Below are positions 22,189 through 57,803 of a stretch of 64,000 bases of DNA, piece after piece. The notes beneath the pieces are model-generated. The model had not been told where the DNA came from and searched no databases. It saw only the letters and a program-made list of their open reading frames with translations. The position numbers were made by a program, and so were the translations under genes. Numbering within the stretch: the first letter of the stretch is position 1; the number at the start of each line of letters is the position of its first letter. Source of the DNA: an uncultured Roseobacter sp. (lineage in GTDB: Bacteria > Pseudomonadota > Alphaproteobacteria > Rhodobacterales > Rhodobacteraceae); NCBI RefSeq assembly GCF_947496515.1, contig NZ_CANMDB010000010.1, positions 62,001 to 126,000 of the forward strand. The letters are read 5' to 3'.

Positions 22189-22283
22189 CCGGGCGGCGGC
22201 GTGGCCGCGCCGAGGGTGGCAAACCACCGCGCGCCCCCGTCACACCGCGTCAACGAACAGATACGTGCGCCATGTTAATCCCG

Positions 22284-22339
22284 GTCATGCCGACACGGGC
22301 ACCGACGCAATACCGCTGAAATACCGACGTTATACCGAC
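22284..22339 (-). repeat. Five-unit 11-bp tandem array, copy 1
   Basis: Read on the minus strand, five units with consensus GTCGGTATNNN follow each other with lengths 11, 11, 11, 12, 11. They begin at 22339, 22328, 22317 (variant AGCGGTAT), 22306 and 22294. The array lies between the 3' ends of the small gene and the HDAC-like gene. A second array with the same spacing lies at 55411-55466. Confidence 0.8.
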
Positions 22340-22364
22340 GCGGCATCCCCCTTGTTTTCAGGCG

Positions 22365-23510
22365 TTAACCGCCGATTCGCCGTTTAGGCCACCCTCGGGC
22401 CACCGACCGTTGCGTCAACACGCCCACCCGGTCCTTGATCGCGTCCCGCACCGGCCCGTCCCGCGGAGCATCGCGCAGGGTGGTGAACCAATGCTCGGGC
22501 GGGTTCTTGCCGCGCCGGTTCCCGTCAAAGCGCAGCCCGCGCAGCACCGCCTCCGCCGCCTCCGGCAGCCGCTCCGGGATCGCATGGCCGTTCAGCGTTC
22601 CCCAGACCCCGGTCCAAAGCCGTCCAACCGACCACGGGTTATAGCCGCCACCCCCCAGCACCAAAAGCCGCGGCGCCATACCCATCAAAGCGGACACCAC
22701 GGCCCAATGCGCATTATTGCTGAGCGACAGATGCGCCAGCGGGTCTTCCTCGACCCCATCCGCGCCACACAGCAGCACCACCGCATCGGGACGAAAGGCC
22801 GCCACCTGCGGCACGATCAGCGCCTCCTGGATGAAGCCCATCTCACTGTCGTTCAGCCCCCGCGGTACCGGCAGGTTGAGTGCGGCTCCCCCCGCATCAT
22901 CGGCCAGCACACCGGTCCGCGGCCACAGCCCCTCTTCGTGCACCGAGATCATCAGACAGTCGGGATCACCATGAAATCCGACCGCCACGCCATCACAATG
23001 ATGCGCGTCAATATCCACATAGGCGATGCGCCGCACCCCGCTCCGCCGCAGGCTCAGCATCGCCAGCACCGGGTCATTGAGATAGCAGAAACCGTTGGCG
23101 CGGTCCGGCATGCCGTGGTGCGTTCCGCCCGGCGGGTTGTAGATCACTCCGCCCTCGCGCAGCAGTTCACCGGCAAGCAGCGATCCCCCCGCAGCGGTGG
23201 CAGGCCGCCGGTAGATCTCGGGGTACACCGGGTTGGTGACAGAGCCCAGATTGTGCCGCGCAAGATCGACCTCCGTCGCCACCTGTGCCGCCTCAACCCT
23301 CTGTAAAGCCGCGAGATAATCGGGCGTATGCCAGACCTCCAGCGCCTTGGGCTTGGCCCGCGGCGCGAGGATGAACTGCGCCCGCGGCAACCATCCCAGC
23401 GCCCGGCTCAGATCCATCACCGTGCTCACCCGCGGCACCCGCAGCGGGTGCCAGCGACCATAGCTGGAATGGCGGAAGATCTCCGCGCCGATAAACCGGG
23501 GGGTGTCCAT
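22365..23510 (-). CDS. Histone-deacetylase-family amidohydrolase (AcuC/acetylpolyamine type)
   Basis: A 381-residue zinc amidohydrolase of the arginase/deacetylase fold. The tandem catalytic histidines are in PPGGTHHGMPDRANGFCYLND, the zinc ligands in YVDIDAHHCDG and the later Asp in GVEEDPLAHLSLS, and the glycine-rich GGGGYNPWS loop is complete. Bacterial members deacetylate lysine side chains, acetoin-related proteins or acetylpolyamines. It is encoded opposite to the peptide-transport genes and splits them. Start ATG 23508-23510. A polyamine or N-acyl-amine substrate would match the neighbourhood, but this is an inference. Confidence 0.85.
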   Translation of the reverse strand: MDTPRFIGAEIFRHSSYGRWHPLRVPRVSTVMDLSRALGWLPRAQFILAPRAKPKALEVWHTPDYLAALQRVEAAQVATEVDLARHNLGSVTNPVYPEIYRRPATAAGGSLLAGELLREGGVIYNPPGGTHHGMPDRANGFCYLNDPVLAMLSLRRSGVRRIAYVDIDAHHCDGVAVGFHGDPDCLMISVHEEGLWPRTGVLADDAGGAALNLPVPRGLNDSEMGFIQEALIVPQVAAFRPDAVVLLCGADGVEEDPLAHLSLSNNAHWAVVSALMGMAPRLLVLGGGGYNPWSVGRLWTGVWGTLNGHAIPERLPEAAEAVLRGLRFDGNRRGKNPPEHWFTTLRDAPRDGPVRDAIKDRVGVLTQRSVARGWPKRRIGG

Positions 23511-54172: not shown

Positions 54173-55387
54173 TCACGCCACAGCGTGGGATATCGCGCAT
54201 TGTTTCCACAGCTCTTTGAGCGCCAGCACCAGATGTTCGATATCGTCGGTGCTGTGCAGCGGTGACGGCGTGAACCGCAGCCGTTCCGTCCCCTTCGGAA
54301 CGGTGGGGTAGTTGATGGGTTGGACGTAGATCCCGTACTGCTGCATCAGATAATCCGCGATCATCCGGCATTTGACCGGATCCTTGATCATCACCGGGAT
54401 GATGTGACTGGGATTGTCCAGATGCGGGATCCCCTCCTGATCGAGACGTTTGCGCAGATAGGCCACGCGCTCCCGCTGCAGCTTGCGCTCCTGATCGGAC
54501 TGCTTGAGATGCCGGATGGAGGTCTGCGCCGCAGCCGCGACCGCAGGCGGCAGGGCGGTGGTAAAGATGAAACCAGAGGCAAACGACCGGATGAAATCGC
54601 ACAACGCTTCCGAACCGGTGATATAGCCGCCCACGACACCATAGGCCTTGCCCAAAGTCCCCTCGATCAGCGTGATCCGGTCGGCCAGACCTTCTTGTTC
54701 GGAGATGCCGCCACCCCGTGGCCCGTAAAGACCAACTGCGTGCACTTCATCCAGATAGGTCATGGCACCGTGTTTTTCGGCGACCTCGACAATCTCCGCC
54801 ATGGGGCAGATGTCGCCGTCCATGGAATAGACACTCTCGAACGCCACGATCTTGGGCGCGTTGGCGGGCAGCGCGCTCAGCTTGCGGTCGAGATCCTCTG
54901 GATCGTTGTGCTTCCACAATACCTTGTTGGCGCGGGAATGGCGGATGCCCTCGATCATGCTGGCGTGGTTCAGCTCATCGGACAGGATCACGCAATCGGG
55001 GATCCGCGCACCCAGGGTGCTGAGCGCCGCCCAGTTCGACACGTAGCCGGAGGTAAAGAGCAGCGCCTGCTCCTTGCCGTGCAGATCGGCGAGCTCCGCC
55101 TCCAGCAGCTTGTGATTGTGGTTCGTGCCCGAGATGTTGCGCGTACCGCCCGCACCCGCGCCGCAGCTGTCGATCGTGTCCTTCATGGCACGGGTCACCG
55201 ACGGGTGCTGACCCATCCCGAGATAGTCGTTGGAACACCAGACCGTGACCTGATCGGGGCTGTCCTCATCGTGGCATTTCGCGGTCGGAAAAGACCCCGC
55301 CTGCCGTTCCAGTTCCGCGAAGATACGGTAGTTGCCATCGTCTTTGAGCGCATCGAGTTGCGTCTGGAACAGTGCATCAAAATCCAT
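54173..55387 (-). CDS. hemA: 5-aminolevulinate synthase
   Basis: A 404-residue PLP enzyme that condenses glycine and succinyl-CoA (C4 pathway), the entry to heme and bacteriochlorophyll. Motifs: [47 protein letters not shown] and the PLP Lys247 in [16 protein letters not shown] 55385-55387 follows AAGGGGGG and overlaps the end of puhE. The 11-bp tandem array (55411-55466) lies directly upstream. Confidence 0.95.
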
Positions 55388-56219
55388 GATGTCCCCCCTT
55401 TATTTTAGCTGTCGGTATTGCGTCGGTATTGGGTCGGTGTTTTGTCGGTGCATCGGTCGGTATCATCCACCGCCAGAGGCGTTCGTCCGGGACCTTCAGC
55501 ACCATCATCCAGTGCTCGAAAAGCGCCAGCGCCGTGATCGCAGTGAGCAGGCTGAAGCCCGCCACATCGCCCGGCTCGGATGCCGCGTAGAGCCGCTCCA
55601 GCCAGCAGGCCACGGCAAAGCTCAGCGCGGTGATCGACACCGGAAAAAGCCAGTTGAGCGGGCGGTGACGGAAGTGGCTGGGCAGATGCGCCAATGCGTT
55701 GGGCAGAAAATCAATGTTGATCTTGGGCACGCCGAAAAAGAGGTTCAACTTCGCCGACAGGCGCGCAAAGAACAAGACCGCAAAGGTCCAGGTGGCGAAA
55801 CTATTGGTGGCCGCCAGATGCCAGTCGATCAGGAACATCGCGATCAGCACCGCCACCAGCAACATCTCGTGGTAGGCGAGCGTGCCCCAGGCGCGGATGA
55901 ACCGCTCCCATTCCGGCACGTCGCTCGGCAGCGCATGATCGTTGGGCCCGGTGATCACCCCGGTGAGAAAGGCAAGCTCGATCCAGCCCCAGATCGCCAG
56001 GGCTGCCAGAAAGCCCGCGTACGCACCAAAAACCGACGCGTCGTGCAGTGAAGCCCAGACGCCGCCGAACCCGAGCGCGAGAACCGGCAGACCCCAGAGC
56101 ACGGCCCGCCTGCGGGCGGCCATGCCTGCCCGGTCCGCGGATTTCACCACCCAGAGGATCGCACCGGTGGAAAACCACCAGACGAACAAGGCAAAGAGGG
56201 CCGGGATCCAGAAGCTCAC
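55377..56219 (-). CDS. puhE: PuhE, photosynthetic complex membrane protein (DUF3623)
   Basis: A 280-residue protein with about seven membrane helices, starting [21 protein letters not shown] and containing [34 protein letters not shown], the DUF3623/PuhE hallmark. PuhE affects bacteriochlorophyll production and complex assembly in Rhodobacter. GTG 56217-56219 was chosen (GGAGG ten bases upstream). The last 25 residues ([18 protein letters not shown]...) are encoded by the 11-bp repeat array and are probably not part of the conserved protein. Confidence 0.88.
55411..55466 (+). repeat. Five-unit 11-bp tandem array, copy 2
   Basis: Read on the plus strand, units with consensus GTCGGTATNNN start at 55411, 55422, 55433, 55444 and 55456, spacing 11, 11, 11, 12, 11. 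The array lies in the 3' end of puhE and 24-79 bp upstream of the hemA start codon. Copy 1 is at 22284-22339 in the opposite orientation. Confidence 0.85.
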
Positions 56220-56358
56220 AGGACGGACACCTCCGCAGAGGTGCTGGCGGGCAGCGGGGCACCCGTCACCCGTTGCTGGCAACGGGTGACCGCGGGCGCG
56301 CACCGCCTCGATGGCCCGCGCGCCCGCGTGCCCTCACCGCTTATGCCCGCTCCTTGGG

Positions 56359-57510
56359 TCAATACGCCGGCTCCAACCGGGTCGATGCCGGTACCTGGTG
56401 CTTCTTCACCGGGATCGTGAAGAGCGACACGAAGGCCGCCGCCGCCCGGGCCTGAGCACCGAGCTTGGCAAAGAACCTGCCAGAAGCCGTTGCCTCCGCC
56501 AGATCGACATTGGCCTTCTGCAGTTTCTCCAGCGTGGGCTGCCAGCGCGGATGCTCGATGTCGAGCGTGATCGGAAAGATCTGCTCTGTCAGCTTCGAAG
56601 TCTTGGTAAAGACCTCATGTGCGTACCAGTCGGGATCCACGCCCAGGGCCTTGTGGAACGCCGGGCGCTGGTGGTCACGCACGTACATCGTGGCGTAGAC
56701 CGCCGTCAGGAAGAACTTGATCCAGTAGACGTTCTTGCCCGAGGTCAGCTTGGGGTCGGTCTTCATCAGCAGGGCAAAGGCCTCACCGTGGCTGAACTCA
56801 TCGTTGCACCATTCCTCGAACCATTTGAAGATCGGGTGGAAGCGGTGCTCGGGGTGCGCCTCCAGGTGACGGAAGATCGTGATGTAGCGCGCATAGCCGA
56901 TCTTTTCCGACAAATAGGTGGCGTAGTAGATGAACTTTGGTCGGAAATAGGTGTATTTCTTCTTCTGCGTCAGAAACCCGAGGTTCACCGCCACACCCGC
57001 CTCGCGCAGCGCGTCGTTGATGAAGCCCGCATGCCGCGCCTCGTCCCGTGCCATCAGCTGGAACAGCTGGGTGATGTCCTTGTTGGCCCCGCGGCGCTTC
57101 ATTTCCTTGTAGAGCACGCAGCCCGAGAATTCCGCGGTGCAGGAGCTGATCAGGAAATCGATGAATTCCTTTTTCAGCTGCGGCTCCATCCCGTCCCAGT
57201 CCACATGGTCCCAGTCCTCGTTCTTGCGGAAATGCCCCTTGTTGGGGTCGCTGACCATCTGGTCGATCAGCTTGTCCCAGTCCTCGCGGACGGAGCTTAC
57301 GTCGATGGCGTCGAGCTCGTCGAAATCCGTGGTATAGAACCGCGGTGTCAGCAGCGTGTTCTGCATTGCCACTTCTGTGGCGGCAACGCTGTCGAACTTG
57401 GCCTGCTCCTCCTGGATAGCGAGGCCTTCCTCGACCGTGGTGGCATCGGCGGTGTGGGTCGCACCCGCGGTGGGCGCATCGGGGTTCGGGGCGTTGTTCT
57501 GGATGTTCAC
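56359..57510 (-). CDS. acsF: Aerobic Mg-protoporphyrin IX monomethyl ester cyclase AcsF
   Basis: A 383-residue diiron oxygenase that forms ring E of (bacterio)chlorophyll using O2. Ferritin-like diiron motifs are visible in ARDEARHAGF and NDEFSHGEAFALL, and TPRFYTTDFDELDAIDV and YFRPKFIYYATYLSEKIGYARYI are typical. Presence of this enzyme fits an aerobic phototroph. GTG 57508-57510 follows GAGGAGG and overlaps the bciE stop (GTGA). The N-terminal 40 residues are variable (Ala/Thr rich). Confidence 0.95.
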   Translation of the reverse strand: MNIQNNAPNPDAPTAGATHTADATTVEEGLAIQEEQAKFDSVAATEVAMQNTLLTPRFYTTDFDELDAIDVSSVREDWDKLIDQMVSDPNKGHFRKNEDWDHVDWDGMEPQLKKEFIDFLISSCTAEFSGCVLYKEMKRRGANKDITQLFQLMARDEARHAGFINDALREAGVAVNLGFLTQKKKYTYFRPKFIYYATYLSEKIGYARYITIFRHLEAHPEHRFHPIFKWFEEWCNDEFSHGEAFALLMKTDPKLTSGKNVYWIKFFLTAVYATMYVRDHQRPAFHKALGVDPDWYAHEVFTKTSKLTEQIFPITLDIEHPRWQPTLEKLQKANVDLAEATASGRFFAKLGAQARAAAAFVSLFTIPVKKHQVPASTRLEPAY

Positions 57511-57803
57511 AGCGTCACCTCCTCGGAGAACGAGAACTCGCACAGCTCCATCACTTCGAAATCACCCGTTAGTCGGGTCCAGAGCTGCTCAAGCTTGCTG
57601 GCGCGGATGATCGTGGCCTCGCGGTCCTCCACGACGATCTCGCCGAAGGGGGCCATGATCTCCTCTCCGTGTACTTTCACTTCGTCACCGGGGTAGATCA
57701 CGGCGCCGTTGTTGAACCGCACATGCGCGTGCAGGCTCTCGAACTTGTGGCTGATCTCCACGGTGCAGGGGGCACGTTCAAAGTCCTTTGTCAGTAGTCC
57801 CAT
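57507..57803 (-). CDS. bciE: BciE, auxiliary subunit of the oxygen-dependent cyclase
   Basis: A 98-residue soluble protein, starting MGLLTKDFERAPCTVEISHK and containing VIYPGDEVKVHGEEI and FGEIVVEDREATI. Position and size match BciE of Rhodobacter, described as a required partner of AcsF in alphaproteobacteria. It is translationally coupled to acsF (stop overlaps GTG). ATG 57801-57803 follows AAAGGAAG; the upstream 32 codons have no support. Confidence 0.85.
   Translation of the reverse strand: MGLLTKDFERAPCTVEISHKFESLHAHVRFNNGAVIYPGDEVKVHGEEIMAPFGEIVVEDREATIIRASKLEQLWTRLTGDFEVMELCEFSFSEEVTL

Follow-up and report, generated by a model that had tools for sequence, protein, structure and literature searches.

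The five-core array lying directly before hemA belongs to a dispersed, site-conserved family of 11-bp arrays whose repeated word is lineage-specific, and a hemA-specific reading of it is not supported. At six loci and inside valS, one and the same place carries different words in different lineages. The arrays suggest a fast-changing DNA-binding system rather than a one-gene switch.

The window, i.e. the whole stretch of 64,000 nucleotides analysed, is G000:C10:62001-126000, where G000 is the window's own genome within a genus panel of 19 genomes (G000 to G018). Genes were called with a home-made codon-usage caller, and gene starts are approximate. The array and its gene setting are as follows.

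55411..55466, + strand: array with five GTCGGT cores (core positions, repeat finding and shuffles)
55377..56303, - strand: puhE frame, with the array in its 3' coding tail and its stop overlapping the hemA start (TIGR03055, E=1.3e-82)
54173..55387, - strand: hemA, 5-aminolevulinate synthase, downstream of the array (TIGR01821, E=3.6e-197)
56359..57543, - strand: acsF, upstream gene on the same strand, given for context (TIGR02029, E=5.5e-155)

The layout and position described by the sequence-only reading were both recovered. The GTCGGT cores start at 55411, 55422, 55433, 55444 and 55456 on the + strand, in steps of 11-11-11-12 (unit lengths of 11, 11, 11 and 12, plus the last unit), and the array begins 24 bp upstream of the hemA ATG (hemA start 55387, - strand). 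Tandem Repeats Finder independently detected 55410-55449. The exact four-unit pattern matched once on the + strand of the window and not at all on the - strand, and occurred in 0 of 200 mononucleotide shuffles of the window (each read on one strand). What the sequence-only reading had missed was the puhE frame running through the array, together with dozens of further copies in the genome. This frame passes through the array stretch, with its stop within the hemA start, in 16 of the 17 loci compared, counting that of the own genome, the seventeenth, from G003, being unmatched; the array is thus DNA of the variable PuhE tail and not free promoter spacer. Alignment of 16 puhE/hemA sequences showed a clean array in G000 and G011, a stretch of equal length with some units altered in G008 and G014, a shorter form in G002 and G015, and no clean array in the other ten.

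A second copy in the window (copy 1) had been described as having the same unit and layout. The steps agree, at 11-11-11-12; one of its cores is AGCGGT and the last is GTCGGC. This copy also shows the flanking parts of a longer element.

22289..22339, - strand: copy 1 of the array, cores GTCGGT, GTCGGT, AGCGGT, GTCGGT and GTCGGC at 11-11-11-12 steps (core positions)
22359..22380, - strand: flank module GCGAATCNNNNGTTAACGCCTG of copy 1, longer element form (exact match at G000:C10:84359-84380; module alignment)
22264..22279, - strand: 3' flank module ATTAACATGGCGCACG of copy 1, element consensus GTTAACaGGGCGCGCG (sequence comparison)

For the anatomy of the element we relied on two sets: at least 44 arrays of G000, including the two of the window (a further match lies, for example, at G000:C6:150917), and at least 45 fetched places of G011 plus its hemA locus. 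The unit reads GTCGGT-AT-(C/T)(A/G)-C, and four or five units are present in 39/44 G000 arrays and 42/45 G011 arrays. The element is polar and consists of three to five copies of the 6-bp core at an 11-bp period, the first and last units differing from the middle ones. In the units of both genomes the core is nearly invariant and the spacer variable, a conservation that is partly built in, since the arrays were searched for by core. Between G010 and G012, at loci C to F of the panel defined below, a hand count placed differences at 1/96 core positions versus 8/60 positions in the first three spacers (P = 0.002), some of these arrays having been found by the core pattern itself; mutated cores were seen in flank-fetched loci of the array-poor species G002, G018 and G006. 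The longer form carries the module GCGAATCN4GTTAACGCCTG about 30-40 bp before the array and GTTAACaGGGCGCGCGG about 20 bp after it. Allowing up to one mismatch, the former module has 11 matches in the 19 genus genomes, eight at GTCGGT arrays (G000, G011), two at GTACAC arrays (G016) and one at a GTGCAC array with one altered core (G005); all 11 adjoin arrays, which rules out an independent host repeat. Modules of a similar kind stand beside arrays in other genera.

In the own genome, the strict three-unit pattern gave 39+38 matches and its reversed control none, while the loose pattern gave 65+59 matches versus 7+5 for the reversed one. Chance or low complexity is ruled out by the zero matches of the reversed pattern and of the shuffles. 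Strict GTCGGT arrays occurred in 10 of 59 genomes (own included), all of this genus, in which the number of matches ranges from 0 (9 of the 19 members) to 101 (G011). As many relatives have no array, whatever function the arrays serve is dispensable. A longer strict pattern retrieved 44 stretches from a collection of 84,980 species, labelled Roseobacter, Roseovarius, Shimia, Silicimonas, Pseudooceanicola, Sulfitobacter, Sedimentitalea and Candidatus Rhodobacter lobularis, with two records labelled merely Rhodobacteraceae and Alphaproteobacteria. A viral or plasmid origin was considered and rejected: two of the words each matched a single viral contig, on which genes were called, the GTGCAC match possibly being chance, and the plasmid matches comprised two Roseobacter plasmids at the puhE/hemA locus and three short matches at E=4.

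The genes beside the arrays are diverse (lpd, gltD, chorismate mutase, cimA, gatB, livG-like, dmsB-like and many others), and arrays are also found within valS and cobN as well as between convergent genes. Regulator-like genes adjoin some arrays (e.g. L032, L043 and L053), and none was common to the arrays among the G000 neighbours and a few loci of other species inspected by eye. Both neighbours were called nearby for 66 of 87 G000/G011 arrays, 13 of which are located between convergent genes; arrays between co-directional genes are antisense in 31 cases and sense in 15 (P = 0.026).

The places themselves are shared. For at least 26 of the 44 G000 arrays, a lower bound, the G011 arrays fetched include one at the orthologous site; for the remaining 18 they include none. 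In 14 of the 15 G000/G011 pairs that share a single flank, it is the left flank, preceding the array, that is conserved. Of the stretches retrieved from the 84,980-species collection, we compared 31 GTCGGT arrays outside G011 and G006. In 10 of them, a homologue of a gene flanking a Roseobacter array lies no more than 350 bp away with side and strand preserved, and in no case was such a neighbour present solely in another arrangement; one of the ten records (L096) proved to be G018, leaving 9 of 30. The neighbour genes common across genera include lpd, a livG-like gene, chorismate mutase and a dmsB-like gene. Among the GTGCAC loci of other genera, 1 of 10 keeps neighbour, side and strand, next to gltD, and at another (L395) the neighbour homologue is on the opposite strand.

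Three core words share the one 11-bp period, namely GTCGGT, GTGCAC and GTACAC. In the genus scan, GTGCAC arrays were found in G005, G007 and G009, with one each in G001 and G011, and the reversed pattern had no match in the 19 genomes. With up to one mismatch, GTACAC arrays gave 45 matches in G016 and one each in G005 and G007, the single control match being in G018. Across the family, 10 of 248 Rhodobacteraceae genomes, sampled at one per genus, contained GTGCAC arrays, with at most 13 forward matches per genome and zero control matches. A tree built from three loci places the GTGCAC species in two separate clades.

That words differ at shared places is apparent in several comparisons: (i) in the linker of valS, G000, G011, G010 and G012 have a GTCGGT array and G005, G007 and G009 a GTGCAC one with an identical period, while nine of the 16 genomes read have neither and 3 more were unmatched; (ii) for 20 of 32 GTGCAC arrays the orthologous locus in G000 or G011 holds a GTCGGT array, the 32 being all but one (G009 valS) of the 33 among the matches listed, and the G005 valS array (L265) falling outside the count of 20, although it sits at the valS site, because the script rule missed it; (iii) in a panel of six loci (A to F), located in the 19 genomes by querying with flanking sequence, the 106 locus/genome cells show at least three GTCGGT units in 22, at least three GTGCAC/GTACAC units in 17, and both in none. 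Of these cells, 26 are sequences first fetched for their array, and the 80 fetched by flank alone still include 7 with GTCGGT arrays and 6 with GTGCAC/GTACAC arrays; shuffles of the 106 cells reached three units once in 2120. Within cobN, G000, G011 and G014 carry a GTCGGT array, that of G014 with one altered core, and G007 shows degenerate GTGCAC/TCATAC units in steps of 11 bp; 14 of 18 species have neither, 11 of these 14 being of the same length without a gap.

Several further observations accompany these data. The lone GTGCAC array of the GTCGGT-rich G011 (L246, G011:C16:46964-49990) lies, as judged by eye, in an ABC-transporter-like operon. The GTGCAC species G007 has one intact GTCGGT array (G007:C3:22808-22857), equal to a G006 array in five cores and four spacers and adjoined by the same livG-like gene. 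GTATGAC-N4 is frequently the unit to the left of the array in GTGCAC genomes, and in G009 at locus E (L393) this unit is repeated at 11-bp steps before a GTGCAC core, a possible fourth word. A region of about 1.44 Mb in G016 (84,895 to 1,526,735) is without a GTACAC array among the matches listed. On the right of cimA at locus E (L383 to L390, for example), several species that have no array at this place carry a different, hairpin-like repeat GGTGGCCTGAAGCCCACC ... GGTGGGCTTCAGGCCACC and a GGGCGCTGTCC-type palindrome. Translation of the coding arrays gives the ValRS linker RTDVIPTQYRPDTDV, the 18-letter PuhE tail and the CobN stretch (L046, L033 and window 55411-55466).

The explanation that we favour, with about even confidence, is an array of conserved position to which a putative protein would bind cooperatively in double-stranded DNA, recognising a word that depends on the lineage. 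That three words share a fixed period of 11 bp points to helical phasing and to a protein as reader, with one protein subunit per 11 bp that would sit on roughly one face of the helix and read double-stranded DNA. The occurrence of both orientations between co-directional genes, together with the convergent sites, favours a reader at the DNA over one at the RNA level. As the word differs while the period, the flanks and many of the sites are kept, reader and sites would have changed together. The sites in convergent gene ends and in coding sequence make a chromosomal role, or a broad effect at operon joints, likelier than control of hemA. The arrays are observed with their period, words, sites and polarity, whereas a reader protein that binds cooperatively, has co-evolved with them and gives them a function is inferred. 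The excess of antisense arrays is unexplained under double-stranded reading, and against a binding array stand also the many relatives without arrays, the damaged cores of array-poor species, the differing first and last units, a feature not required of a simple binding array, the lack of an array in G011 at sites A and E, and the 18 G000 arrays without an orthologous one among those fetched from G011. Empty sites within each clade are expected equally of a mobile or recombining element.

A rather unlikely alternative is a small, non-autonomous, MITE-like mobile element in several sequence families, which would insert chiefly at tight gene junctions and be lost by precise deletion, the array being an element end or a transposase-binding part without host function. 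The uneven copy number across the genus (0 to 101 exact matches), the polar composite structure and the left flank conserved in nearly all single-flank G000/G011 pairs are in keeping with this, as is the state of two panel loci. At locus A, the genes overlap at TCAT (= ATGA) in seven genomes (G003, G004, G006, G011, G013, G014 and G016), and TCAT stands on both sides of the array in all six genomes with an array of at least three units; locus C is empty in four genomes (G003, G013, G014 and G017) and shows the pair TCGGTCAT/TCAGTCAA at the array. The repeated bases at loci A and C, a possible target duplication, are overlapping start/stop codons needed by both genes. No gene tracked the arrays in the two families tested (Y1_Tnp and reverse transcriptase), and the own genome has neither, so that a reverse transcriptase or an HUH transposase (Y1_Tnp) was rejected as array maker; no palindromic ends were noticed by eye in the flanks. 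The earlier suggestion of a mobile repeat that had landed before hemA holds as far as the family is dispersed and patchy between species. A simple landing is nevertheless insufficient, because sites and polarity are the same in different species and genera while the repeated word differs, and because the cobN array, in coding sequence, keeps the length of 11 of the 14 array-less species. Filled and empty states are mixed within clades, which could also mean that species have passed array alleles to one another through homologous recombination at the locus concerned, either in a homing-like way or as ordinary exchange; the shared sites would then reflect shared transfer and not function. We regard this as improbable. 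The valS array stretch of G010 and G012 almost equals that of G011, although elsewhere in the gene the similarity is not unusually high, and the shared G006/G007 array beside the livG-like gene points the same way. Yet identity is not elevated from the valS array into its flanks (valS being the sole locus so compared), which rules out a large recent transfer there, and the genome-wide change of word is left unexplained.

Action on translation or RNA stability by an RNA-level element near start and stop codons seems highly unlikely to us, even though, at several of the six panel loci, the array is adjacent to where an operon gene starts, the co-directional arrays are more often antisense than sense, and RNA-level action was proposed for the TAACTGA repeats (PMC4679880). 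Against it speak the two orientations relative to transcription and the 13 of 66 arrays between convergent genes; moreover, 20 loci (90,239 bases) gave no Rfam match at gathering score, by which a known structured RNA family was also ruled out. Least credible of all is an operator for hemA or for a photosynthesis regulator. The array does lie just upstream of hemA, and 11-bp direct repeats are a known form of operator, as described for PimR (PMC5930380). A hemA-specific operator would be expected to be conserved before hemA and absent elsewhere; instead, a clean array is missing at hemA in 14 of 15 aligned relatives and dozens of copies stand beside unrelated genes. The proposal that the array binds a regulator of ALA synthesis is not supported, given these many unrelated neighbours and the identity of the hemA array with puhE coding sequence.

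Beyond the favoured protein-binding array, we advance as a tentative possibility that these are chromosome-wide phased arrays, their positions kept across genera, including inside genes, and their word replaced at many sites within entire lineages, with a function fixed by position rather than sequence. As part of the same tentative reading, they may be a bacterial counterpart of fast-evolving centromere- or hotspot-like DNA with a fast-evolving reader. Sites with a regulatory or structural role tend to retain their word and shift in position, whereas in these genomes many positions persist and it is the word that changes, at many loci within one genus. GTCGGT, GTGCAC and GTACAC form a natural series in marine bacteria, including Roseobacter litoralis and R. 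ponti, that is useful for finding the reader protein and that raises the question of how a DNA-binding protein and dozens of sites change together.

We found no description of such arrays in roseobacters in the open-licence literature, in which six literal array strings were unmatched. Among known systems, the plasmid centromere iterons of ParR/parC of R1 are sets of 11-bp direct repeats bound cooperatively; they occupy one locus per plasmid beside parMR, whereas the present arrays are at dozens of chromosomal sites. The DNA-binding domains of SARPs are OmpR-like, and PhoB boxes share the 11-bp period. On comparison, the present arrays resemble OmpR/SARP operators in having a short core and a variable spacer at that period; unlike such operators, which lie in the promoter of a regulated gene, the arrays also occur inside valS, cobN and puhE and between convergent genes. 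For the SARP PimR, the published description gives 7-bp cores at an 11-bp period, less conserved spacers and cooperative binding of monomers, with two or three units in one target promoter (PMC5930380), versus four to five units at dozens of sites here. REP/REPIN and MITE-like repeats are likewise small, numerous and dispersed in bacterial genomes (for REPINs, PMC3116915); the present arrays differ from REP/REPIN in being direct repeats of fixed period without a linked HUH transposase, Y1_Tnp being absent from the own genome.

The nearest published phenomenon that we found is the TAACTGA direct repeats of Beggiatoaceae, cyanobacteria and Bacteroidetes (MacGregor 2015, PMC4679880). As far as the available portion of that report goes, they form dispersed direct-repeat sets of 2-6 units, patchy among taxa and without a functional theme, as do the present arrays in being dispersed and patchy; they are mostly intergenic near start codons, their binder is unknown, and the author also considered a binding protein as a possible mobile part. 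Their units are of 7 bp with one favoured word, near-words being rare as repeats (PMC4679880). The present arrays do not belong to this type, their cores being GTCGGT, GTGCAC or GTACAC instead of the 7-bp unit TAACTGA. They have an 11-bp unit, variable spacers and three words at one period and, in contrast to what the same portion describes for TAACTGA, sites and polarity common across species and genera and conserved flank modules.
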